Assembly: GCF_008035925.1 (NCBI RefSeq)
Contig: NZ_CP036264.1
Span: 829,774-893,773 of the forward strand
Source: Stieleria maiorica
GTDB taxonomy: Bacteria; Planctomycetota; Planctomycetia; Pirellulales; Pirellulaceae
DNA: 64,000 bases
Reading direction: 5' to 3'
Shown here: in pieces, positions 28,814 through 43,623 of the stretch
Layout: the number at the start of each line of letters is the position of its first letter
How positions within the stretch are numbered: position 1 is the stretch's first letter
Notes under the pieces: generated by a model
The model's database searches: none
The model's input: only the letters and a program-made list of their open reading frames with translations
What the model was told of the DNA's origin: nothing
Position numbers and translations under genes: made by a program

Positions 28814-30226
28814 TCAAGCCAAATCGGCGTGGGTGAGGGTGTCGGGTTGCTTCGCGCGTTTCGATCGGCCGCGCCGAACGATGATGAAGATCGCACCACC
28901 GGCGATGACCAGCAAGGTGATCCCCAACAAGGGCCGATAAAAGACCCAGGCGATTCCGATGACGGTCATCGCCCCGGCGATCGTCAGCAAGCCGGCGACG
29001 ATCGCGGTCCCGAATCCGACCAACGACCCTGCGATCGGCAACACGTCAGCCAGAACGACCAGCGGTCGCAGCACCAACATCAGGCCAAAGAACATCATGC
29101 CGGTTCCCGCCACTCGCAGGAACCACGTCAGCATGCGGTTGGCCGCTTCTTCTTGAGCGATCATTTCGGCGGCGCTGTGGACTCCGACCTTCAGCACGTT
29201 GATCGTCGTTCCGTAATGCGTCTGGAAGGGCTGGAACGAGTCGCCGGTCTGTTGGCTGAGCAAACTGACCGTTTGCGCCGGCGTGGCGGTGAACCAGACG
29301 CGGACGTCACCGATTTGCGGTGTCGACGTGTCCGCTCGTTCTTGCGAGGATTCGGAGGGCCCATCAACGGATTCGGAGGGCCCATCAACGGATTCGGAGG
29401 GCCCATCAACGGATTCGGATGGCCCATTGACCGGTTCGGGCCCATTGACCGGTTCGGGGCGATCGCCGTCGGTCGATCGCGATTGGTCCGGCGCCGTGAG
29501 CGTTAATTCCGCCGCGGCGGCGGGCGTGGGCGTCGTCTGTTTCGCCGGCGGCGGGTTGGAAAAGACATAGATCCGCGATCCGCCCTCCGGACCGTCATTG
29601 CGAATTACCGAGCGGTCCCGCAAATCTTCGGGAAGATTCGCCGGGCCGAGTTCCAACGCGTCTTCTCCGCCGATCATCGCGACCAGGGAATCGGGTAACC
29701 GGAATCGGCCCAGAGAAACGTTTTTGGCCTGGTAGGTCCGGTCGGCAAAGACGAACTCGGTCGGGTTCCGGTGCGACTGTGCTTCGTCAAAACCGCTCGA
29801 ATCGATCAACCCGGGGAACCAGTCTTTCTCGTAGGTGTATGTCGTGGTCGTCCGCGTTCCTCCGCCCAGCTTTTTCTCTTTGCTGGTCTGTTCGTTTTCG
29901 TTCCACTGGTACATCTCGACGTGGCGTGTCAATCGGACTCCGTTGTACTCGATGGCAAACTCGTCGTCGCGGAGGACGTCATCGGTTTGGACTTGCCCGG
30001 ACGTGTGGACAAACTTTCCATCGTTTGTCGAGTCGACCGAATCGGGCTGGATGTCGACGACGACCTTGGCACCTTCCTTCAATCCCTTGGCGGTGCGGAC
30101 CGCGCGGCCTTCATTCCAAAACAATAGCGGAACGGAAACGATCGTCAGCAGGCCTCCGAACAGGATGCCCACGAACGCTTTGCCGATGCGGCCGAACCAC
30201 GATTCTTCGGTGACGTGCGTACCCAT
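28814..30226 (-). CDS. TMEM43-family membrane protein
   Basis: 470 residues. One N-terminal helix (about 15-37), a large domain (about 40-350) and three or four C-terminal helices (about 375-455) with VLADVLPIAGSLVGFGTAI, as in TMEM43/DUF1625 proteins. The family includes human LUMA, a nuclear-envelope protein; bacterial function is unknown. Features EEAANRMLTWFLRVAG and NEGRAV fit. The inserted low-complexity stretch near 250-300 repeats PSESVDG and EPVNGP, encoded by a tandem repeat. It lies between a TIM-barrel gene (38 bases upstream) and the M3 peptidase, in one strand run. Confidence 0.85.
   Translation of the reverse strand: MGTHVTEESWFGRIGKAFVGILFGGLLTIVSVPLLFWNEGRAVRTAKGLKEGAKVVVDIQPDSVDSTNDGKFVHTSGQVQTDDVLRDDEFAIEYNGVRLTRHVEMYQWNENEQTSKEKKLGGGTRTTTTYTYEKDWFPGLIDSSGFDEAQSHRNPTEFVFADRTYQAKNVSLGRFRLPDSLVAMIGGEDALELGPANLPEDLRDRSVIRNDGPEGGSRIYVFSNPPPAKQTTPTPAAAAELTLTAPDQSRSTDGDRPEPVNGPEPVNGPSESVDGPSESVDGPSESVDGPSESSQERADTSTPQIGDVRVWFTATPAQTVSLLSQQTGDSFQPFQTHYGTTINVLKVGVHSAAEMIAQEEAANRMLTWFLRVAGTGMMFFGLMLVLRPLVVLADVLPIAGSLVGFGTAIVAGLLTIAGAMTVIGIAWVFYRPLLGITLLVIAGGAIFIIVRRGRSKRAKQPDTLTHADLA
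29348..29459. repeat. In-frame 21-bp tandem repeat in TMEM43 gene
   Basis: Three perfect 21-bp copies starting GGATTCGGAGGGCCCATC, then a diverged fourth, an 18-bp CGGTTCGGGCCCATTGAC unit and the first bases of another. All are multiples of three, so copy-number changes add or remove PSESVDG-like residues without shifting frame. Confidence 0.85.
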
Positions 30227-31576: not shown

Positions 31577-33322
31577 CTAACCGGCAAACGCTTTGCCCGG
31601 GCTGCGGAGCGAAACCGGCAGGACCAACGTGAACGTGGCTCCCTTTCCGATCCCATCGCTGTGGACCATCAGCCGGCCGCCCATTTCGACGGCCGCGATC
31701 GCCGACGCGTGCAGCCCGAAACCGTGTCCGTCTTTTTTGGTCGTGAAGCCGTTGGAGAAGATCGTCGTGATCCGGTCGGGGGCAATTCCGATTCCGCTGT
31801 CACGGACCTGGAACCAGACCTCGTCGCCGTCTTGCCGCAGCCGCAGCGTCACGCGTTTGGTGTCCGAATCGTGTTCCAGCACCGATTCCTTGGCATTTTT
31901 GACCAGGTTGACGATGATTTGGATCGCCTTGGCCTTTTCGATTTCGATCACCGCGACCGGATCGTACTCACGCACCAGTTTGACGTCGTGTTTGGAGAAA
32001 GAATCGTGAACGAAACGGATCGCGTCTTCGAACAGCGATTCGGGTTGCAACTGTTCGGTCACACCGAAGGCGCCGGCGTGGGATTGTTGGGCGCGGACGA
32101 TGTCTTTGATGTGTTCGACGTTGGACGCCAAAGAAACGACCTCGTCCAAGATGGAGCGTTGGTCGTCACGCATGCTCTCGGACAGCTTGCCCAGATATCG
32201 TGGCAAGATCTTTCCCTGGTCCGTTTCCAGCAGGAATTCGGCCAGGTCGTCTTCATTCTGCGTCAGCAGCTGGACGGCTTTTTCGACACTGGCCAATTTG
32301 ATATTTCGAACGCGTTGGTCGATCAGATTGGCGCTGATGTTCAAACTGTTCAGAACGTTGCCGATGTTGTGCAGCACGCCGTTGGCGATGTCGGCCATTC
32401 CGGCACGCCGGGAGACTTCCAGGAGTTGCGCGTGAGTTTCCTGCAGCTGTTTCGTGGCGTGATCCCGGGCTTCGACTTGGTTTTGCAGGGCGGTGTTGGA
32501 TGATTCGAGTTCGCGGGTCCGGTTTTCGACGCGCTGTTCCAGATCCTGGTTCAGTTCCTTCAGCCGCTTGCTGGCTTGGATCACCGCTTTTTCACGGGAC
32601 TGGACACGATCGAGCATGTCATTGAATTGTCGGTACAAGACCCCGATTTCATCTTCTCCATCGTGATAGACTCGGATGCTGCAGTCGTCGCTCTGGGAGA
32701 TCTTTTTGGCCGTCGATGCCAGTCGCAGGATGGGGGCGGTCACCGATTCTTGAAGGTGGGAGATGGCGAACACGCCGATGATGATTGAAAGGGCCAGCAC
32801 GACGGCGGCGGCCAGCAGGTGGGACCGCCGCGCCTGTTTCAGGTCGGCGGTGGTTTCCCGCAAGATCAACGTGCCCAGCCGATTTCCATCGTCGATGATC
32901 GGCACCGCCACTTCCAGAAAACCGTCGTCGCTGTAGCGAGCCCCGCCGGCGATCGATCGGCCGCTCGGCAGCGATCGATCGGCGCTGTGATGATCCACAC
33001 CGCCGCGGCGATAGATCGCAAACAGGTTTTGGTCGGAATCCAAGATGCATGCGGTGGTGATCGTCGGGCGTCGCTTGACGGCCGCCAACAACTCTTCGGC
33101 GGCATCTTGTTGTCCGAACGCGATCGCCGCCGTGCTGTTGGTGCTAAGCGTTTCGGCGATCGCCGTCAGCTGCGTGGCTTTGGATGCCGAAATGCGGCGG
33201 ACGTCCAGGACGACAAAGATGACACAGGCGACCGTGACCGCCAACGTGATCGCCGTGGCCGCCAGGAACGTCAGTTTCGTTCGCACCGAAACGTCGCGAA
33301 ATCGTTTGTTGGTGATTCCCAT
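31577..33322 (-). CDS. CHASE8-type sensor histidine kinase
   Basis: 581 residues from the ATG giving MGITNKRFRDVSVRTK. Membrane helices at about 14-40 and 167-190 flank a periplasmic domain of ~125 residues (STNSTAAIAFGQQDAAEELL, ITTACILDSDQNLFAIY) that fits CHASE8. HAMP follows to about 240, then a coiled coil to 300. The phosphoacceptor is His318 in VLHNIGNVLNSLN; ATP-binding motifs are NLVKNAKES, DSGIG and HGFGLH. It is the last gene of a unit with a YfiR-like protein (five bases upstream) and a TonB receptor. No receiver domain is attached, so its signal must pass to another protein, plausibly the divergent hybrid kinase. Confidence 0.9.
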   Translation of the reverse strand: MGITNKRFRDVSVRTKLTFLAATAITLAVTVACVIFVVLDVRRISASKATQLTAIAETLSTNSTAAIAFGQQDAAEELLAAVKRRPTITTACILDSDQNLFAIYRRGGVDHHSADRSLPSGRSIAGGARYSDDGFLEVAVPIIDDGNRLGTLILRETTADLKQARRSHLLAAAVVLALSIIIGVFAISHLQESVTAPILRLASTAKKISQSDDCSIRVYHDGEDEIGVLYRQFNDMLDRVQSREKAVIQASKRLKELNQDLEQRVENRTRELESSNTALQNQVEARDHATKQLQETHAQLLEVSRRAGMADIANGVLHNIGNVLNSLNISANLIDQRVRNIKLASVEKAVQLLTQNEDDLAEFLLETDQGKILPRYLGKLSESMRDDQRSILDEVVSLASNVEHIKDIVRAQQSHAGAFGVTEQLQPESLFEDAIRFVHDSFSKHDVKLVREYDPVAVIEIEKAKAIQIIVNLVKNAKESVLEHDSDTKRVTLRLRQDGDEVWFQVRDSGIGIAPDRITTIFSNGFTTKKDGHGFGLHASAIAAVEMGGRLMVHSDGIGKGATFTLVLPVSLRSPGKAFAG

Positions 33323-33327
33323 TGGCG

Positions 33328-33927
33328 CTAGTCCCGCTCGATGGTCGCGATGTTCAGCAATTTGGCGTCGGCCTGGAGACCGCGTCGGGCCATCGCATCG
33401 ATGTTGATCCTCAGCCCGATCGTTCCGTCGCGATCGGTAAAGAAGCGGATCGGAACGCCGCGTCGGGATGCCTCGGCGGACTCGCAAATCAACAGCGATT
33501 TCTGTTGTTCGGTCCGCCGGATCGCCTCGGCTTCGTCTGCCGACGCGATTCCCGCATGCAGAAAGACCAGGTGGCAAGCCTGGATCACGCCGACGGAATC
33601 GAATTGTCGAACGACGATTGACCGGCCGCGGGCCTTTTTCTTCGCCGCGACCTGATTGATCAATCGAGCGTGGGGATCACCGTCGATGATTCCGATCACC
33701 ATCGGCGACGATGCATCGGTGTGCGCCGTCTCGGGCCAACGCACGTAACGCAAAAAGTTATACAGGTAGGCGACCTTCACTTTCTGCTCGGTCGCGACGC
33801 CGACATCGGCCCGTGCCGTCGGGGCGCCCACAAGACCGGTCATCACCAACAGAGCAACGGCCAATCGGATCGGTCGCGTGACCGATCGCCGAACGTGACG
33901 CCGGGATGGATTGTCGTTCATGTTCAT
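33328..33927 (-). CDS. YfiR-like periplasmic signalling protein
   Basis: 199 residues from an ATG whose last bases overlap the TonB-receptor stop (ATGA), with GGAG eight bases upstream. The signal peptide (RPIRLAVALLVMTGLVG, cleavage near ARADV) directs export. The mature domain shows KVAYLYNFLRYVRWPE, IGIIDGDPHARL, CHLVFLHAGIA and SLLICESAE, the pattern of the YfiR/HmsC (DUF4154) family. YfiR in Pseudomonas binds the periplasmic part of the CHASE8 protein YfiN and keeps it inactive. Here the next gene encodes a CHASE8-like kinase, so an analogous contact is likely. Confidence 0.87.
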   Translation of the reverse strand: MNMNDNPSRRHVRRSVTRPIRLAVALLVMTGLVGAPTARADVGVATEQKVKVAYLYNFLRYVRWPETAHTDASSPMVIGIIDGDPHARLINQVAAKKKARGRSIVVRQFDSVGVIQACHLVFLHAGIASADEAEAIRRTEQQKSLLICESAEASRRGVPIRFFTDRDGTIGLRINIDAMARRGLQADAKLLNIATIERD

Positions 33928-36095
33928 CGTCGCCACTCCACGTACGCATGAACGCTTCGCGGCACTTCGGTCGGAACGTCGCCGGTGAACAGATTGGGGC
34001 CGAACTCGTAGTGTCGCCGGTCAAACAGGTTTCGCCCGACGATCGAGGCGGAAAGATGGCGTCCGAGGTTCCAACCCAAACGTGTGTCGACCGCCAGATA
34101 CGACGGCGTTGCTTCGGCCGGCAGACTGTCGACATAGCGGGTGATCAGATCCAATTGGCAACCGCGACGAAGGTCGAAGGAATTGGTGAGCGAAACTTGA
34201 TTGCGTGGCAACGCGTCCGACTTGCCGGCCGTGCCTGGGACCGACGGCGGCGGTTCATCAAACTGAATCCGCTGAAACGCGTACCAGCCTCGAACCGTCC
34301 AACACCCGGTCAGCTGAGCGGTCGCGGAAAGCTCAAAGCCGTAACCATCGGCCGACGCGGTATCCGAGATGTCCAAAAACGGAACACCGACAGTCGGGAA
34401 ATTCAGACGCAGCGCATGCAATTTGTCATAGTCGTGGAAATAGGCCGTCGCGTCCCACGAAAGGTACTCGTTGGTCTGTTGCCGATATCCCACTTCATAG
34501 GCTACCAAGTTTTCCGCCCCCAAGTCGCCGTCTGTGAAAAGCATTAACGGAAAGTTACCCAGCGGTGTCGGCTGATTGACAATCAATTGCCCGTCGGCCG
34601 ACAGACGCGACGGTGTGCGGACGGCGCGTGAGATCGCGCACCACGCCGCGTCCGATTCGCTGGGCAGCCACAGCAACCGCGCGCTCGGCTGGAGTTCGAA
34701 GTTGCTGAACGTGTTGTGCGAAAATTTTGATCCGAGCGTGAAGTACAACACGTCTTCGAGCAACGTCATTTCATCTTGAATGAACGCGCTGAATCGTTGC
34801 ACCGTGCGTTGCTGAGGGTCTGCGGCGATGTAGGGCACCGGGTCGTTGTTGGTCAATTTGTCAAAAATGGCGCGGTAGCCGGCTCCCCAGATGATGGCGT
34901 GATCACATCGGTAGCGGAAATGGCTTTGGAAATCCAAATCAAAGATGTTCGTTTGCTGGTTAAACCCGTAGGCTTTGCGATCGAATCGGTCGTAGTACAG
35001 TTGCAACGACGATTCGTGATCCCTCGAGTGTTTTCTCGTCCAACGCGTTAACAGGTTGCCCCCGGCGACCGGTTGATCGAACCGCAGGCGTCCGGCAAAG
35101 TCGCGATCGGACAAACTGTCCGACTGGCCGTTGTAGTACTGGCCTTGAAAGCTGACTTGATCATCCGAGGGCGCGGTCCAATCGGTGCGGAAACCCAACC
35201 GTGCCTGTTCGGTCGCGTCGTACGGCGTGCCGCCGACCAAATCCATTTCGTCGCGCTGGTACCACTTGCCCCAGACCCGATAATCGACTCCCGATTCGGT
35301 TCGGCCGCCCAATCGTCCGCCGACGAACCCTTGTTCCAACGTTCCCGCACCGGCGATCGCATAGCTGCCGTGGGTCTGGGAACTGGGCTTGGTCAGGATG
35401 TTGATGACACCGTTGACGGCATTGGCGCCCCACACCGTCGCTCCGGGGCCGCGGATGACTTCGATCCGCAACACGTCTTCCAGCAGCACGTCTTGGACAT
35501 CCCACAACACCCCGGCGAACAGCGGGTTGTAGACGGTGCGACCGTCGATCTGAACCAGCAGCTTGTCGCTGAACCGCCCCGACTCGCCGCGGCTGCTGAT
35601 GCTCCACTTGTTGCCATCGATCCGTGACACCTGCAGCCCTGGGGCCAAACGAAGCACTTCGGGGATCGACTGGTACCCGCTGCGACGAATCATCTCGTTC
35701 GTGATCACGAACACGGCCGCCGGCGATCGGCCGATCGTGCTCTTTTGACGCGAGACCGACGTGACTTCGACCTCCAGCGATGGGGCCACCGACGTCCGCC
35801 GCAACGCACCGAGGTCTTGTTCCAACAGGGAATCGAGTTCGCTGTCGAAACTCTCGTCATCGTCCGCGGCATCGGAACCGTCGGTCGCGTGGTCTTCGTC
35901 GGCCAACGGAGGGGCGATGTCGGCCCCCACGCCGGGTGCGGCCGTCTGCTGGGCGTGCCCGGTGGTGCCCGCGCCGACCAGAATCGCTGCGACAGTGAAC
36001 ACCGCGAACGGGAGCACTATGAACCGTGCCGCCGTTCTCCCTCGCGTTTCGATCGCTCGGTCGCCCTCTCGGACGCCATGACAGTCTGCGTTCAC
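33924..36095 (-). CDS. TonB-dependent outer-membrane receptor
   Basis: 723 residues. A hydrophobic leader (about 22-45) ends near GHAQQ. An acidic region precedes a TonB-box-like LEVEVTSVSR (about 107-116). The plug domain follows with AAVFVITNEMIRRSGYQSI, PEVLRLAPGLQVSRIDGN and LLVQIDGRTVYNPLFAGV, then a beta-barrel to a terminal aromatic-rich strand (SVHAYVEWRR). Such receptors import iron chelators, cobalamin or sugars, or signal ligand binding. No TonB, ExbB or ExbD gene lies nearby. It leads a unit with a YfiR-like protein and CHASE8 kinase, so here it may act as an outer-membrane sensor as much as an importer. Confidence 0.92.
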   Translation of the reverse strand: MNADCHGVREGDRAIETRGRTAARFIVLPFAVFTVAAILVGAGTTGHAQQTAAPGVGADIAPPLADEDHATDGSDAADDDESFDSELDSLLEQDLGALRRTSVAPSLEVEVTSVSRQKSTIGRSPAAVFVITNEMIRRSGYQSIPEVLRLAPGLQVSRIDGNKWSISSRGESGRFSDKLLVQIDGRTVYNPLFAGVLWDVQDVLLEDVLRIEVIRGPGATVWGANAVNGVINILTKPSSQTHGSYAIAGAGTLEQGFVGGRLGGRTESGVDYRVWGKWYQRDEMDLVGGTPYDATEQARLGFRTDWTAPSDDQVSFQGQYYNGQSDSLSDRDFAGRLRFDQPVAGGNLLTRWTRKHSRDHESSLQLYYDRFDRKAYGFNQQTNIFDLDFQSHFRYRCDHAIIWGAGYRAIFDKLTNNDPVPYIAADPQQRTVQRFSAFIQDEMTLLEDVLYFTLGSKFSHNTFSNFELQPSARLLWLPSESDAAWCAISRAVRTPSRLSADGQLIVNQPTPLGNFPLMLFTDGDLGAENLVAYEVGYRQQTNEYLSWDATAYFHDYDKLHALRLNFPTVGVPFLDISDTASADGYGFELSATAQLTGCWTVRGWYAFQRIQFDEPPPSVPGTAGKSDALPRNQVSLTNSFDLRRGCQLDLITRYVDSLPAEATPSYLAVDTRLGWNLGRHLSASIVGRNLFDRRHYEFGPNLFTGDVPTEVPRSVHAYVEWRR

Positions 36096-36514
36096 CGCGC
36101 CACCCCGATTTCGATGCCCACTTTCTATCGCGACTCAGCGACCTGCTGACGAACAGGGCGTTCCCGCTCGCGCTGGCGTTTGCTAGCTCGTGTTCGGCAC
36201 GCTCGTGCCTGAGACGTGGACGTACATTCCCCCGCCCATTCATGTTGTCGAATGCACGGAGCATCAATTCCAATGATTTAATGATCTTTACGGTCATCCA
36301 CAACCTTATCCGCCCCGAAGGGCGTGTTAAGTATGCGGATCGGGAGTGCCGGTTGTCCCTCAGATTGAAACATTTCGATCAGATCTATCCTGCGATCGAT
36401 CGTCTTGTGCTGATCACAAGCGAAGGTTTGGGGCAACAAGAGACATTGGCGACGAACGGAAGACGATTTGTGATCTGACGATCGAGCCGCGCACCGAAGG
36501 ACGACCCAGAAACA
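36096..36514. other. Divergent promoter region of the signalling locus
   Basis: A 419-base gap between the TonB-receptor operon and the divergent hybrid kinase. It is more AT-rich than its flanks and should hold both promoters. The only clear motif is a short palindrome given separately. I found no gene; a 150-codon plus-strand frame starting inside the receptor has no family features. Confidence 0.55.
36404..36420. promoter_or_regulatory. Candidate operator palindrome
   Basis: CTTGTG and its complement CACAAG are separated by five bases, about 95 bases upstream of the hybrid kinase start. Its place in the shared promoter region suggests a regulator-binding site. The arms are short and could occur by chance. 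Confidence 0.25.
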
Positions 36515-38374
36515 ATGATGGATGACGCATCTAGGACGAGCACCAGGACCAGCGGCGGACAACTCGTCGACGAGCCCCCACGGTCGCGAATCATCATCAT
36601 CGATGACAACACCGCGATTCACGATGACTTTCGCAAGATTTTGTGTGACGATTCCGGCGGTGATTCGGAATTGGACTCACTGGAAGTCTCCCTGTTCGGC
36701 ACTTCCTCGCGCCAGGCCAGGGCGTCCCGGTCGTACGAATTGGCATCCGCCTATCAAGGTGAAGACGGATACCGGATGGTGTGCGAGGCGATCGAAGAGG
36801 GGCGTCCCTTCAGCACGGCGTTCGTCGACATGCGGATGCCCCCGGGCTGGGACGGCGTGGAGACGATCCGTCACCTGTGGAAGGCCGATCCCGATCTGCA
36901 AGTTCTGATTTGCACCGCGTTCTCGGATTATTCCTGGTCGGAAATCGTCGAGGAACTCGGCCACAGCGACCAGTTGCTGATTCTGCGAAAACCCTTCGAC
37001 GCCGCAGAGGTTTCTCAGATCGCGGCGGCGATGACCAAAAAAAGAAAGCTGACCGAAGCGTCCCGAAACACCGTCGCCGACCTGGAAGAAACCGTTGCCG
37101 CGAAGACGAACGAGCTTCGTCGCGAGATGAAGCAACGGGAACTGGCGCAGCAACTGTTGCTGGAAAAAGAAAAACAGCTGCGTGAATCCCAAAAACTGGA
37201 AGCGGTCGGGATGTTGGCCGGCGGGATCGCGCATGAGTTCAACAATCTGTTGCAGATCATTCTTTCCTATGCGCAATTCGGAATCGACTCCACCCAGGCG
37301 GGCGAACCGTTGCACCAAGATCTGAAATGCATCCTCAAGGCCGGGGAGCGCGCCAGTTCATTGACGCGTCAATTGCTCGGCTTCAGTCGCCGCAAACCGC
37401 TGTGCTGTGTGGATATCAACGTCAATGATGTGATCGCCGAATTGGTTGCCCTGGCCAAGCCGCTACTGGGGTCTCGGATCACGCTTCGCCAAAACCTGCA
37501 TCCCCACTCGGTGATCGTGCATGCCGATTCGGTCGAACTGCAGCAAGCGCTGCTGAATTGTTGTATCAATTCACGCGACGCGATGGACGGTACCGGCGAG
37601 CTGACGTTGTCGACCGAACCGGTGGATCTGGATGAAGCGTATTGTCGCAAAGACGAGGTGCTCAAACCCGGGCCGTTCGTTCGGATTTCAATTTCTGATA
37701 CCGGCAGCGGAATGCCACCGAACGTGTTGGAGCGGATCTTTGAGCCTTTCTTCACGACCAAGGAAGTCGGGTCGGGAACAGGGCTGGGAATGGCGATGGT
37801 CTACGGGTTGGTGAAACAGCACCAAGGGCACATCGAGGTCGAATCCGAAGTCGGTGTGGGCACGACGTTTCGAATCTTATTGCCCGCGGTCAAGACGACT
37901 GCGAAAGAGAAGGAGCAAGTGCGACCGGTCGCCGACCGAACTATGGACGACAGCGGCAGCTTCGGAACGATCTTGGTCGCCGACGACGAAGAACTGTTGC
38001 GACAAGTCAGCAAGCGGATCCTGCAACACGCCGGATACGACGTGGTGTTGGCCAGCGATGGACAAGAAGCCGTCGACCGTGTCGAACAATTGGCCGGCCA
38101 GATCGATCTGGCCATCCTGGATGTCATGATGCCCAACATGACCGGGCGCGAAGCGTGCACCCGCATCGCAGAGAGCAATCCGAATCTGCCGCTGTTGTTC
38201 TGTACAGGCCATGACCCCGAAGTCGCTCAAAAGGGTGAAGTCCCGCCCGGCTATCCGGTCGTTCACAAGCCCTTCACCCCCGACCATCTGCTTTCGTCGG
38301 TCCGCGAGATCCTGGACGAGCACCAGAGACTGCTTCAAGAACGCAGAGACGTTAATTCGGCGACGACGGTGTGA
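36515..38374 (+). CDS. Hybrid histidine kinase with receiver domains at both ends
   Basis: 619 residues, soluble. An N-terminal receiver (about 24-175) keeps Asp30-Asp31, phosphoacceptor Asp105 in FVDMRMPP and Lys159 in LRKPFD. A coiled coil (180-228) leads to HisKA with His240 (GGIAHEFNNLLQI) and an HATPase domain (NSRDA, DTGSGM, GSGTGLG). The C-terminal receiver (485-600) has Asp490-491, Asp536 in LDVMMP and Lys585 in HKPFT. There is no membrane segment or DNA-binding domain. It could accept phosphate on the first receiver from the CHASE8 kinase encoded divergently, and relay it through its own core. The output partner is not encoded beside it. Confidence 0.93.
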   Translation: MMDDASRTSTRTSGGQLVDEPPRSRIIIIDDNTAIHDDFRKILCDDSGGDSELDSLEVSLFGTSSRQARASRSYELASAYQGEDGYRMVCEAIEEGRPFSTAFVDMRMPPGWDGVETIRHLWKADPDLQVLICTAFSDYSWSEIVEELGHSDQLLILRKPFDAAEVSQIAAAMTKKRKLTEASRNTVADLEETVAAKTNELRREMKQRELAQQLLLEKEKQLRESQKLEAVGMLAGGIAHEFNNLLQIILSYAQFGIDSTQAGEPLHQDLKCILKAGERASSLTRQLLGFSRRKPLCCVDINVNDVIAELVALAKPLLGSRITLRQNLHPHSVIVHADSVELQQALLNCCINSRDAMDGTGELTLSTEPVDLDEAYCRKDEVLKPGPFVRISISDTGSGMPPNVLERIFEPFFTTKEVGSGTGLGMAMVYGLVKQHQGHIEVESEVGVGTTFRILLPAVKTTAKEKEQVRPVADRTMDDSGSFGTILVADDEELLRQVSKRILQHAGYDVVLASDGQEAVDRVEQLAGQIDLAILDVMMPNMTGREACTRIAESNPNLPLLFCTGHDPEVAQKGEVPPGYPVVHKPFTPDHLLSSVREILDEHQRLLQERRDVNSATTV

Positions 38375-38782: not shown

Positions 38783-40102
38783 ATGCTGTTCATGTCCAAA
38801 TCGCCATTTGTCCGTCGCGCCCTGTGGTGCGGCACGTTGGCAGTCACGTTGTTGATTGTCGATGGGGTGCCCGCCCAGATTCCCGGGCCGTCCGAACCAG
38901 AAAACCTTCAGCCGGTGATGGCGTGCCGCGTCCGCACGGGGCAGGCCAAGTCGGCCTATCAGCTGTTGGGCACGGTGACGCCCAGTCGGACCACCACGAT
39001 CGGTTATTCGTTGCCGGGGCGATTGCGCACCTTGCACGCCAAACGCGGCGATCGGCTTGCCGCCGGCGATGCCGTGGCGGATTTACAGACCGATGTGATT
39101 CAAATCGAACTTGCCGCCGCCAAAGCGGAATTGCGTTTGGTCCAACAGCAACTCGCCGAGTTGGAATCCGGATCACGACAGGAAGACATCGCCGAAGCCA
39201 AGGCCAGGATGGAAGCCGCCGGTGCGATCGCGCGTCGGTCGGCCAGCCAGCTGGAACGGCTGTCCAAACTGGTGCGATCCAAAGCCGCCTCGGTCGAAGA
39301 ACTGGACGTGGCGACGGCGGAGGCGAATTCGTCGCAGCAGTTGTTGCAGGCGGCGACCATCGCCCATGCCCGATTGGTCGCCGGGCCGCGGGTCGAGCAA
39401 GTCGCCCAGGCCCAGGCGCGTGTGGATCTGCAACGCGAACAAGTTCGCCTGCTCGAAGACCGGCTCAACAAGCACACGCTGATCGCACCTTTCGACGGTT
39501 ACGTCACGGCCGAGTACACCGAAGCGGGCGCTTGGATCACCGCCGGCGATCCGGTCGTCGACTTGATCGAACTGGACACCGTCCGCGTCGAAGTCGCTGT
39601 CCCGGCCGCCCAAGTGGTTTCGCTGCGTCCGGGGCAAACGATCCATGTGGAATTCGACGCGCGGCCGGGCGAATTACTGCTCGGGCAACTCGAACGCATC
39701 GTGCCCGCCGCCGACACGCGGGCGCGAACGTTCCCGGTGTTGGTGCGGATCAAAAACCGAATCGACAACGGGATCCCGATGCTGATGTCCGGGATGGTCG
39801 TGCGGATGGATTTGCCGATCGGGCCGGAAGTCGAGCTGACGTTCGTGCCGACCGATGCGATCGTCCTGGACGGCCAGCAACAGTCGGTGTTCGTCGTCGA
39901 TGCCGATCGTGCCGCCGCCTCCACAGCGGAGCAACCGAAACAGGCGGCCGTCGTCCGCAAAGTGCCGGTCAAGCTGGGCGTCGCGCAAGGAGATTGGATT
40001 TCGGTCCGCGGTGATCTGCCGGCCGACGCCATCGTCGTCACGCGGGGCAACGAACGTTTGGCGGCCGGACAGTCTGTGGAGGTCACCGTCTCGGACGGTT
40101 GA
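38783..40102 (+). CDS. RND efflux periplasmic adaptor protein
   Basis: 439 residues with a signal peptide (FVRRALWCGTLAVTLLIV, cleavage near VPAQI). A lipoyl-type half-motif (LRTLHAKRGDRLAAGDAV) leads to a long alpha-helical hairpin (about 110-225), then the second half (LIAPFDGYVTAEYTEAGAWI) and beta-barrel. The membrane-proximal domain ends with RKVPVKLGVAQGDW. This is the membrane fusion protein of tripartite pumps. It probably bridges the RND pump encoded by the next gene, which starts overlapping its stop, to an outer-membrane channel not encoded here. Confidence 0.9.
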   Translation: MLFMSKSPFVRRALWCGTLAVTLLIVDGVPAQIPGPSEPENLQPVMACRVRTGQAKSAYQLLGTVTPSRTTTIGYSLPGRLRTLHAKRGDRLAAGDAVADLQTDVIQIELAAAKAELRLVQQQLAELESGSRQEDIAEAKARMEAAGAIARRSASQLERLSKLVRSKAASVEELDVATAEANSSQQLLQAATIAHARLVAGPRVEQVAQAQARVDLQREQVRLLEDRLNKHTLIAPFDGYVTAEYTEAGAWITAGDPVVDLIELDTVRVEVAVPAAQVVSLRPGQTIHVEFDARPGELLLGQLERIVPAADTRARTFPVLVRIKNRIDNGIPMLMSGMVVRMDLPIGPEVELTFVPTDAIVLDGQQQSVFVVDADRAAASTAEQPKQAAVVRKVPVKLGVAQGDWISVRGDLPADAIVVTRGNERLAAGQSVEVTVSDG

Positions 40103-43100
40103 GTGACGTGTTTGAAATCCTGATTCGAAACCCGGTGAAGGTCTACGTCGGCGCGATTCTTGCCGCGATGTTCGGCACGCTGTCGCTGGGGTTGATCCCA
40201 AAGCAACTCGTTCCGGAAGTCCAAAACCCAGTGCTGACCATCGAAACTCGATGGCCGGGGGCCAGTCCCCAAGAAATCGAACGCGAAATCGTGCTCGAGC
40301 AGGAGGAGCAGCTGCAGGGCGTCGAAGGGCTGGTCAAACTATCGTCCAGCTGTCGTGTTTCCTCGGCCGAAGTCACGCTGGAATTTGAGATCGGCACCAA
40401 CATCGATGACGCACTGGCGCGGGTCAACACACGTCTACAACAAGTGCGTGAGTATCCGCTGGATGCCAGTGAACCGGTGATCGAAGCGGCCGACTTAAGT
40501 GCCCAACCGATCGCGCGGTTCGCACTGACGCCCCGGCCGCCGACCGGCCAAGCGATCGCCGAATTCCAGGCGGCCCACCCCGAGATCGCCGAACTGCTGG
40601 AACCGGCACGCTTGGCCAGCAATTCCGCCCTCCGCGTGTTTCGTTTGCAGAACTGTTTGAACGAACACCTCGCGGCGCACCCGGCGCTGGAAGCGCTCAG
40701 CCCACCGCCGGTGGATCTGGAAAAGCTCCGCAAGCTTTCCGAAGACTTTGTCGAAGCAAGACTGGAGCGCGTGCCGGGGGTTTCCAACGCCGAGACGCGC
40801 GGCGGCCGCGAAGAAGAACTGCAGGTGATCGTCGACCCGGCAAAACTGGCGGCGCGGCAGATCACGATCCGCCAAGTCCGCGAGGCGCTCAATCGGCAAA
40901 ACAGCGACACGACCGCCGGTGATTTCTTCCAAGGCAAACGGACCTGGGTGATTCGAACACTGGGCCAGTTTCGCGATCCCGAACAAGTCAAACAACAATT
41001 GTTGGTCTCCGATGGCAACACACGGGTCTATGTCGGTGACGTCGCGGAGGTCAAGCTGGGTTACAAGGACCGCGAAAGTATCGCCCGACGCTATGGTACC
41101 GAAAGCATCAGTTTGAGCGTCGGCCGGGTCAGCGGCGCGAACGTGATGGAGGTGATGAAGGGGCTGCGAGTTGCCAATCGCGAATTGAACCAAGGGGTGC
41201 TCGCGCGCGAAGGATTGGAGTTGTTTCAGTACTACGACGAGACCGAGTACATCGAATCGGCGATTTCGCTGGTGGTGCAAAACATGCTGATCGGAAGCGC
41301 CGCGACGATCATCATCTTGATGTTGTTCTTGCACTTCAGCCGTGCGACCGTTTTGGCCAGCGTGGCGATCGCAGCGACCGCCGTCGCGTCGGTGTATGTG
41401 TCGCCCTGGTTTTACGTCGGCACGGTGTTGTTGATTTTTGTGCTCGGCTACCGGATCGCACGCGGGGCCCTGGTCGCTGCGGTGGCAATCCCGATCAGTA
41501 TCGCCGGGGCGTTTCTGTGCATGACGCTGTTGGGCCGATCATTGAACGTCATTTCACTCGCAGGGATGGCGTTCGCCGTCGGGATGCTGGTCGACAACGC
41601 GGTCGTGGTGCTGGAGAACATCACGCGGCGGAAGCAGTCCGGGGAGAATGCGTTTGTGGCATCGTCGCGTGGTGCCGGCGAAGTCGCCGGCGCGATCATC
41701 GCGTCAACATTGACGACGATCGCCGTGTTCCTGCCGGTGATTTTTGTTCAGGCCACCGCAGGGCAGTTGTTTCGAGACATCGCGTTGGCGATCAGTTGTG
41801 GCATCGCGTTTTCGATGCTGGTTTCTTTTACCGTGATCCCCACGGCCGCCTCACGATTGTTCGCCCGTCGCGGTGGCGGGAATGAATCGCAGCCGGCCGC
41901 CGGCGACACCGATGTAGACACGCATCGCAATGGCGATTCAGAGGGCTGGTTCGAGCGGGTGGTCCGCGGTGCCGCGGGGTTGTTGGTCGGTTCGGTCGTC
42001 GGTCTGAACACCTGGGTGCTGCGGTCGCGATTGCGCTCCGTTGCAGTCGTTTTGGTGATGACGGGAATCTCCGTCGGACTGAGCTATCTGTTGTGGCCGA
42101 AGGTCGAGTACCTGCCGACGGGGAATCGCAATTTCGTGTTCGCGCGGTTTTCGATTCCCGCCGGCTATAACTTGGACGAACTTTCCGACATCGGGGCGAT
42201 CGTCGAAGACCGGTTGCGGCCGCTTTGGGATGTCGATGAAGGCAGTGGTCCGGTCGACGGATCCGACGCACCGGTGTTGGATTATTACTTCTGTTCGATC
42301 CGCGAACGCAGCCTGTTCATGGGGTTTCGCGCCCGGGATGCCGAGCGGGCGTCGGAGCTGGTGCCATTGATTCGCAAGGCCGGCGCAGATTTGCCGGGGA
42401 TTCGCGTGATGGCGTCCCAGTCCAGCTTGTTCGGACGCGGCATGTCCGGCGGCAGAACCATCGATGTCGAAATCTCCGGTCCCGAACTGGAGCAATTGGT
42501 CGTCATCGCCGGACGCGTGCTCGATGACGTCGAACGGTTGATGCCCGACGCCCAAGCGACGGCCCAGCCGAGTCTGGAGTTGTCCAGCCCCGAGATCCAT
42601 CTCCGGCCCAAGTTGTTGGCGGCGTCGGAAATGGGCATCGACACGACGTCGCTGGGGTACGTCGCCGACGCGATGGTCGACGGCGCTTATGCCGGCGACT
42701 ACTACGTCGGCGGCGACAAGATCGACATGACGATCAAGGGACCGACCGGACGCAATGCCGACCCGCAAGCGTTGATGTCGCTGCCGCTGGCGACCGGTGA
42801 CGGTGAAGTCGTGCCGTTGATGGCCGTGGCTCAAATGCAATATGGCAGCGGACCCGAACAGATTCAACGGCGTGAACGATTGCGGTCGATCACCGTCGAG
42901 GTCAGTCCGCCGGATGACATGCCGTTGGAAGCGGCGATGGAACTGGTCAGCGGCCAGATCGTCGCGCCGCTGGTCGACGAGGGCACGATCGGCAACGAGT
43001 ACTTTGTGGCGCTGTCAGGCACCGCCGATAAATTGCGCCAAGCTTGGGACGCACTGCGTTTCAATATTCTGATGGCCGTCGTGATCACGTACCTGTTGAT

Positions 43101-43623
43101 GGCCGCGCTGTTCGAATCCTGGCTGTACCCCTTTGTGGTCATCTTCAGCGTGCCGTTGGGAGCCGTCGGCGGCATCGTCGGATTGTGGATGCTGAACTTT
43201 TTCGTCCCCCAATCGCTGGATGTGCTGACGATGCTGGGCTTCATCATCTTGATCGGCACCGTGGTCAATAACGCGATCTTGATCGTCCACCAATCTCTGG
43301 TGCACATGCGCGAAGAGCACCTCGCGCCGATCGAAGCGGTGCCGATGAGTGTCCGCACGCGGATTCGTCCGATTTGCATCACGACGTTGACGACGGTGCT
43401 GGGGCTGTTGCCGTTGGTCGTGTTCCCGGGAGCCGGGAGCGAGCTGTATCGCGGTTTGGGCGTCGTCTTCTTGGGCGGAATGATCGTGTCGACCTGTTTC
43501 ACACTGGTGCTTGTGCCCGTCGTCTTTGTGTTGTTGATGGACCTCCGCACCGCACTGAAGCTGTCGCCCGAATCGATGCACCTGCCCGGTGAGTCGTGGG
43601 ATCGCATTCCAGCCTGTCAATAA
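40099..43623 (+). CDS. RND-family efflux pump, inner-membrane subunit
   Basis: 1,174 residues. It starts at a TTG overlapping the adaptor stop (TTGA), or at a GTG nine bases on. The first helix (VYVGAILAAMFGTLSLGLIP) is followed by the large porter domain (LEFEIGTNIDDALARVNTRLQ and LSKVPG-like RLERVPGVSNAETRG). The helix-four proton-relay motif GMLVDNAVVVLENI contains the conserved Asp; a second large porter domain (about 680-985) precedes the last five helices. It belongs to the heavy-metal/hydrophobe efflux clade rather than SecDF. The last ten codons lie in a repeat-like sequence also seen at 47.07 kb. Confidence 0.93.
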   Translation: MSDVFEILIRNPVKVYVGAILAAMFGTLSLGLIPKQLVPEVQNPVLTIETRWPGASPQEIEREIVLEQEEQLQGVEGLVKLSSSCRVSSAEVTLEFEIGTNIDDALARVNTRLQQVREYPLDASEPVIEAADLSAQPIARFALTPRPPTGQAIAEFQAAHPEIAELLEPARLASNSALRVFRLQNCLNEHLAAHPALEALSPPPVDLEKLRKLSEDFVEARLERVPGVSNAETRGGREEELQVIVDPAKLAARQITIRQVREALNRQNSDTTAGDFFQGKRTWVIRTLGQFRDPEQVKQQLLVSDGNTRVYVGDVAEVKLGYKDRESIARRYGTESISLSVGRVSGANVMEVMKGLRVANRELNQGVLAREGLELFQYYDETEYIESAISLVVQNMLIGSAATIIILMLFLHFSRATVLASVAIAATAVASVYVSPWFYVGTVLLIFVLGYRIARGALVAAVAIPISIAGAFLCMTLLGRSLNVISLAGMAFAVGMLVDNAVVVLENITRRKQSGENAFVASSRGAGEVAGAIIASTLTTIAVFLPVIFVQATAGQLFRDIALAISCGIAFSMLVSFTVIPTAASRLFARRGGGNESQPAAGDTDVDTHRNGDSEGWFERVVRGAAGLLVGSVVGLNTWVLRSRLRSVAVVLVMTGISVGLSYLLWPKVEYLPTGNRNFVFARFSIPAGYNLDELSDIGAIVEDRLRPLWDVDEGSGPVDGSDAPVLDYYFCSIRERSLFMGFRARDAERASELVPLIRKAGADLPGIRVMASQSSLFGRGMSGGRTIDVEISGPELEQLVVIAGRVLDDVERLMPDAQATAQPSLELSSPEIHLRPKLLAASEMGIDTTSLGYVADAMVDGAYAGDYYVGGDKIDMTIKGPTGRNADPQALMSLPLATGDGEVVPLMAVAQMQYGSGPEQIQRRERLRSITVEVSPPDDMPLEAAMELVSGQIVAPLVDEGTIGNEYFVALSGTADKLRQAWDALRFNILMAVVITYLLMAALFESWLYPFVVIFSVPLGAVGGIVGLWMLNFFVPQSLDVLTMLGFIILIGTVVNNAILIVHQSLVHMREEHLAPIEAVPMSVRTRIRPICITTLTTVLGLLPLVVFPGAGSELYRGLGVVFLGGMIVSTCFTLVLVPVVFVLLMDLRTALKLSPESMHLPGESWDRIPACQ

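Follow-up and report, generated by a model that had tools for sequence, protein, structure and literature searches.

A TonB receptor-YfiR-CHASE8 kinase locus in the planctomycete Stieleria maiorica and its linkage to a special receiver

Among the closest known counterparts of the locus analyzed here are the YfiBNR (TpbB, DgcN) systems of Pseudomonas aeruginosa and E. coli, in which the sensor YfiN has a CHASE8-HAMP-GGDEF architecture and YfiB is an OmpA/PAL lipoprotein. More distant Yfi operons, according to Malone et al. (2012, PMC3375315), almost all lack YfiB, and their GGDEF domain is often replaced by GGDEF-EAL, HPT or sensor/histidine kinases; Thauera has two YfiR proteins with one hybrid-kinase YfiN. 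We analyzed a stretch of 64,000 nt from the planctomycete Stieleria maiorica (GCF_008035925.1, NZ_CP036264.1, positions 829,774-893,773 of the forward strand; hereafter, the window). It contains a four-gene locus that has the family and fold of YfiR, the CHASE8-HAMP sensor and apparent contact positions in common with YfiBNR, but carries a histidine kinase instead of GGDEF and a TonB-dependent receptor instead of YfiB. The unusual core of this kinase recurs in distant bacteria next to one special type of receiver, which in some relatives is fused to enzymes of cyclic di-GMP (c-di-GMP).

Three genes are adjacent on the reverse strand, in the window as well as in six other same-genus genomes: the TonB-dependent receptor with plug and barrel (33924-36095), a YfiR-like (DUF4154) periplasmic protein of 199 amino acids (33328-33927) and the CHASE8-HAMP histidine kinase of 581 amino acids (31577-33322, with its ATG at 33322). 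The end of the receptor gene overlaps the start of the YfiR-like gene by ATGA, and a gap of five bases separates the latter from the kinase gene. On the other side of a divergent intergenic region (36096-36514), the forward strand encodes a hybrid kinase of 619 amino acids with the layout receiver-HisKA-HATPase-receiver (36515-38374). Alignment of seven same-genus loci reveals short conserved blocks in the intergenic region, among them CTTTACGG, present in all seven; the blocks are possibly a shared operator. The four-gene observation, first made in a sequence-only reading, is confirmed: Pfam domains and coordinates agree, and His318 of the kinase and Asp105 and Asp536 of the hybrid lie where they were first placed.

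Pfam was run on the window proteins at E-values up to 1. The receptor matches TonB_dep_Rec_b-barrel (2.8e-21) and Plug (2.6e-16) and has a single N-terminal hydrophobic stretch by hydropathy. No STN domain was matched in it within that threshold, which sets it apart from FecA-like transducers with their N-terminal STN domain; a search for sigma or anti-sigma genes was not part of the analysis. In the S. maiorica genome TonB_C has one match and MotA_ExbB eight, which makes a TonB system for the receptor plausible. An OmpA family is not listed by Pfam for any of the four locus proteins or three flanking proteins, no genome-wide search having been made. The YfiR-like protein, also with a single N-terminal hydrophobic stretch, matches DUF4154 at 8.5e-30 (104.2 bits, cut-off 24.9), and the kinase matches CHASE8 at 2.7e-16 (60.1 bits, cut-off 27), so both similarities proposed from the letters alone exceed the Pfam cut-offs. 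The kinase further matches HAMP (7.9e-9) and HATPase_c (9.8e-19), has two hydrophobic stretches (residues 15-47 and 164-194), and yields no HisKA match under the same threshold. Its H-box is GVLHNIGNVLNS around His318 (codon 32369-32371), the candidate phosphoacceptor. We refer to this unusual kinase core as the HN core.

The hybrid kinase shows no hydrophobic stretch by hydropathy, and Pfam assigns it Response_reg in two stretches, HisKA (2.5e-7) and HATPase_c (2.4e-22). Its N-terminal receiver, which we label NRR (AFVDMRMPPGWDG), spans 36587-37117, with Asp105 encoded at 36827-36829; the NRR profile matches it at 3e-78, the window being among the seeds of that profile. The C-terminal receiver (37967-38293), located by Pfam at residues 486-596 and by profile, carries Asp536 (codon 38120-38122). 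Alignments and a residue check find complete kinase and receiver active-site residues in the locus proteins. D30, D31, D105 and K159 are invariant in six aligned NRR sequences, and H318, N322, D508, G510, G512, G532, G534 and G536 are invariant in five aligned kinases, the window included in both alignments. The sequences show a kinase core with a full set of catalytic motifs and an unusual H-box.

The HN core and NRR tend to occur together. In the S. maiorica genome the three best matches to the HN core (861386, 965400 and 949752) lie beside the three best matches to NRR (866288, 966338 and 949100); in two of the three pairs the receiver protein directly follows the kinase, and in the window the partners are ~4 kb apart across the divergent promoter. 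We then turned to named contigs, keeping the best 80 of at least 521 candidates from a kinase alignment, picked by the H-box pattern; this set is rich in Pseudomonas, and several of its stretches are cut by contig ends. NRR is present in 66 of these 80 stretches and starts within 1.5 kb downstream in 60. The combination of YfiR, CHASE8 and HN core occurs in 17 of the 80 loci, 15 of them with NRR; a receptor lies upstream in 11 of the 17, and nine of these 11 have NRR. For comparison within the phylum, DUF4154 was found in 46 of 392 sampled genomes at 60 places, of which 43 are covered by a set of 41 loci (40 fetched stretches and the window). As a contrast, three of these 41 YfiR loci contain the HN core, two of them together with NRR; the remaining 38 have no NRR closer than 6 kb. 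NRR itself was detected in 19 of 148 genomes sampled from the class (E-value up to 1e-15), and the HN core is present in 13 of 22 NRR loci (20 stretches from outside the S. maiorica genome and two from within it). In one contig (L104) the gene that comes after the receptor, YfiR and kinase genes, on their strand, encodes a receiver-kinase-receiver protein with 31% identity to the hybrid of the window. Several Pseudomonas loci, including L139, L141 and L147 among L101-L180, have HN kinases lacking a CHASE8 match near NRR-GGDEF-EAL or NRR-kinase proteins.

What follows the special receiver differs between relatives. Among 60 NRR proteins whose genes start shortly after an HN core in the named-contig set, 44 continue with a kinase ATPase and nine with GGDEF (eight of these with EAL), and seven consist of NRR only, some of them cut by contig ends. 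A metagenome-assembled genome (MAG) of Planctomycetia (L103) has the order receptor, YfiR, CHASE8 HN kinase and NRR-GGDEF, with an intact GGEEF motif, and then a second NRR protein. A gammaproteobacterial MAG (L112) has YfiR, CHASE8 HN kinase and NRR-GGDEF-EAL, with no receptor found in the stretch. In L081 an NRR-GGDEF-EAL protein is divergent from an NRR protein, YfiR and CHASE8 HN kinase. In L087, where no YfiR was found, a CHASE8 HN kinase is followed by NRR-HD-GYP, the HD-GYP part being read by eye from the translation, with that protein itself as the profile seed and no Pfam scan. Since NRR is fused to GGDEF, GGDEF-EAL or HD-GYP in these relatives, the output can return to c-di-GMP. This suggests a re-plumbing of the sensor from direct cyclase control to phosphotransfer.

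The receptor-YfiR-CHASE8 trio is conserved among loci of the phylum. The loci were searched in six frames with profiles grown in this analysis, longest-open-reading-frame calls being poor in GC-rich loci. Within the phylum set, 38 of 41 loci have a same-strand CHASE8-HAMP no more than 1.5 kb from YfiR, and CHASE8 is accompanied by a kinase ATPase in 35. A same-strand receptor at a distance of up to 1.5 kb from YfiR is found in 24 loci (27 within 5 kb on either strand), and receptor, CHASE8 and kinase ATPase occur together in 21. A GGDEF match within 6 kb appears in one locus of the 41; the GGDEF, EAL and HD-GYP profiles were built from one seed each, so that some of these domains were probably missed. 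No fusion of YfiR to the receptor or to CHASE8 in one open stretch was found in the 41 loci. The second copy in the S. maiorica genome (L033) encodes receptor, YfiR, CHASE8 kinase, a single receiver and a multi-receiver kinase on one strand, with no HN core found. Another locus (L038:5474-15692) has three tandem receptor-YfiR pairs followed by one CHASE8 hybrid kinase, which makes it a good test of several receptors feeding one kinase. Outside the phylum, plasmids of Sphingobium indicum B90A and Indioceanicola profundi carry the series receptor-YfiR-CHASE8-kinase-receiver, and a Pseudoalteromonas plasmid (L100) carries receptor pieces-YfiR-CHASE8-GGDEF. The receptor of the latter is split into two, and an IS30 transposase separates it from yfiR (L100:2930-5989). 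A same-family genome has a DUF4154 domain (L034:7982-8419) near which CHASE8, receptor and kinase matches are all absent.

Within the genus, the YfiR copy of the window is present in seven of 14 genomes. Receptor, YfiR, kinase and divergent hybrid are kept in all seven (the window and L181-L186) in the same order and orientation, so the four-gene arrangement is more than a chance assembly; together with the phylum loci, this bears out the expectation that the neighbourhood would be kept in relatives. In the six other genomes, the aligned length of the hybrid kinase shows 76-93% identity. NRR copies of at least 85% identity occur in exactly the seven trio-bearing genomes; in the seven genomes that lack YfiR, the NRR copy is 64% identical in one (G494) and at most 57% identical in the other six. 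Two further contigs (L101 and L102) appear to be the same as G507 and G508 and add nothing to the genus set.

The residues through which YfiR and YfiN meet appear to be largely kept. We compared contact positions in 50 of 58 YfiR-CHASE8 pairs. The AAVVF motif of YfiN is given as the YfiR-binding site by Malone et al. (PMC3375315), and its Phe is retained in 48 of the 50 pairs; at the position of YfiR Phe162, 49 pairs have a hydrophobic residue, which is Phe in 33 and Leu in 10, the window among the latter. An AlphaFold2 model was made for the L102 YfiR-CHASE8 pair, read through the stop between the genes; the L102 kinase is 71% identical to that of the window. The model is confident within domains (mean pLDDT 92.9, pTM 0.61) and matches solved YfiR chains with TMt 0.70-0.77 and, with weaker E-values, the sensor domains of WalK, CitA and a LapD relative. 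We infer that these matches fall on the YfiR and CHASE8 halves of the model.

Together, these observations suggest a likely mechanism for the locus, which probably acts as a unit from the outer membrane to the cytoplasm. The TonB-dependent receptor would detect or import an extracellular ligand and would signal its state to the YfiR-like protein in the periplasm, as the recurrent pairing of the two suggests. By analogy with YfiN, and given the largely kept contact positions, YfiR would contact CHASE8 and restrain the kinase until released. HAMP would then convey the signal to the HN core, and the phosphate would pass from the kinase to Asp105 of NRR in the divergent hybrid kinase, a step to which the recurrent linkage points. 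The hybrid may relay it through its HisKA His240 and then Asp536 to an unlinked output. In relatives with NRR-GGDEF, GGDEF-EAL or HD-GYP, the module would feed c-di-GMP by phosphotransfer, not through a sensor-fused cyclase. The locus offers a planctomycete chain that is complete, from the outer-membrane receptor to the two receivers, and open to testing. Tentatively, the scheme could be extended to a general relay of TonB receptor, YfiR, CHASE8 kinase and special receiver: the cyclase of YfiN would have been severed from its sensor and linked to it again by phosphotransfer, and the same sensing head could then serve a kinase relay in some cases and c-di-GMP enzymes in others. This gene set was seen with a receptor in Planctomycetota and Verrucomicrobiota loci, and with no receptor in the stretch in the gammaproteobacterial MAG. 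The cluster recurs in distant bacteria and illustrates how a single sensing unit can be connected to different outputs; L101, L103 and L112 are loci where the re-plumbing from cyclase to phosphotransfer can be tested.

Several observations weigh against this chain. No same-strand receptor lies directly upstream in 17 of the 41 phylum loci and in six of the 17 YfiR-CHASE8-HN contig loci, some of these stretches ending at contig ends. Only the Phe of AAVVF is near-invariant in the compared pairs, the two Ala positions being Ala in 32 and 33 of 50. Nine of the 22 NRR loci have no HN core, and three loci (L036, L107 and L114) combine YfiR, CHASE8 and HN core in stretches that lack NRR. The same-genus genome G494 keeps the hybrid (57% identical) beside the same flanking gene with no trio between them, and in four sister-genus genomes the stretches fetched around proteins of the hybrid layout, whose receiver is 46-47% identical, contain no HN core. 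All five have a kinase-core match elsewhere, at 36-42% identity; in the two that were examined, G494 and G436, this core is HN by profile and has no NRR in its stretch. Given G494 and the sister-genus hybrids that lack a linked HN core, the sequence linkage between HN and NRR is strong but not obligatory. The proposal that the double-receiver kinase takes the phosphate is supported indirectly: the two partner domain types are recurrently linked, with some exceptions.

A different view of the first steps is that YfiR is a small binding protein: the receptor would import the ligand, and ligand-bound YfiR would dock on CHASE8 and switch the kinase, with no receptor-released repressor. The L102 model also matches a substrate-binding protein of Rhodothermus marinus, 6k1x (E-value 4.8e-6, TMt 0.57), the aligned part of the chain not being specified, and YfiR has Dali similarity to a pneumococcal ABC-type domain according to PMC4655355. 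Each receptor in L038 having its own YfiR would also fit. Yet the positions by which YfiR acts as a repressor are largely kept, the 17 phylum loci with no same-strand receptor directly beside YfiR are awkward for an import route, and no ligand is known; we consider this view somewhat unlikely.

The end of the chain raises another question, namely whether the hybrid kinase is independent of the trio, which would have been inserted next to it, or lost from such a site, and would signal to another receiver. G494, with its hybrid and flanking gene but no trio, is what such a history would leave, as are the sister-genus hybrids with no HN core nearby. However, core and receiver are paired in three of three cases in the S. 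maiorica genome and in the 60 of 80 contig loci with NRR just downstream, a same-strand counterpart of the hybrid follows the trio in L104, and trio and NRR are present together across the genus with G494 as the sole exception. These patterns make an independent hybrid unlikely. Self-control is common among receptor operons, and the blocks conserved in the divergent promoter region of seven genomes would suit a plain nutrient-uptake control loop in which the kinase merely tunes expression of its own receptor operon, but Pfam (E-value up to 1) lists no DNA-binding domain in the four proteins and relatives have GGDEF, EAL or HD-GYP outputs, so that such a loop is distinctly unlikely.

Other genes surround the locus. 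Downstream of the hybrid kinase and on the same strand, the window encodes an HlyD-type fusion protein and a resistance-nodulation-division (RND) pump (38783-43623). The HlyD/RND genes after the hybrid are at least 84% identical in five of the six other genus loci (L182-L186); in L181 the 2.1 kb that follow the hybrid gave no HlyD match. RND-like genes also follow YfiR in L041, judged by eye. A TMEM43-family protein (Pfam) is encoded at 28814-30226; inspection of its translation by eye shows a short in-frame repeat in the middle part.

The sequence-only interpretation of the locus is partly supported. It could not tell whether the arrangement had been described. In NCBIfam, however, families for the receptor, the YfiR-like protein and the kinase are curated together as neighbours, so the arrangement had already been seen by others. 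In an NCBIfam 20.0 scan, the same three proteins of the window match NF053590 (TOL_0244 family receptor; 3.5e-176, 587.4 bits, cut-off 645), NF053591 (TOL_0243 family YfiR-like; 4e-32, 111.3 bits, cut-off 125) and NF053592 (histidine kinase, YfiR-like protein-associated; 1.1e-48, 165.7 bits, cut-off 194), scoring just under all three cut-offs. Against NF053586, the model of true YfiR, the YfiR-like protein reaches 29.5 bits (cut-off 85). Of two phylum loci compared with the trio of models, L044 exceeds the cut-offs with its YfiR-like protein and kinase and L070 with its receptor; in L033 only the kinase is matched at E-values up to 1e-30, under its cut-off. A paper on how the receptor-YfiR-CHASE8 kinase unit works was not found among those listed in searches of the open-licence PMC literature.

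The replacement of the cyclase by a histidine kinase agrees with the domains, but is not a first, as kinase outputs were reported for distant Yfi systems by Malone et al. (2012, PMC3375315). The main text of that paper contains neither "TonB" nor "receiver", and its section on distant operons names no partner receiver protein. Kinase output and receptor neighbourhood are thus each on record, from Malone et al. and the NCBIfam models, respectively. The Pseudoalteromonas plasmid resembles the window in its adjoining receptor pieces, YfiR and CHASE8, but there CHASE8 is followed by GGDEF, as in YfiN. NF053592 spans only the CHASE8-HAMP part of the kinase, and the special-receiver partner falls outside the NCBIfam models. 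The trio itself is already known; the new point is the pairing of the HN core with NRR, which, along with the return to c-di-GMP enzymes in relatives, is what makes the locus most interesting.

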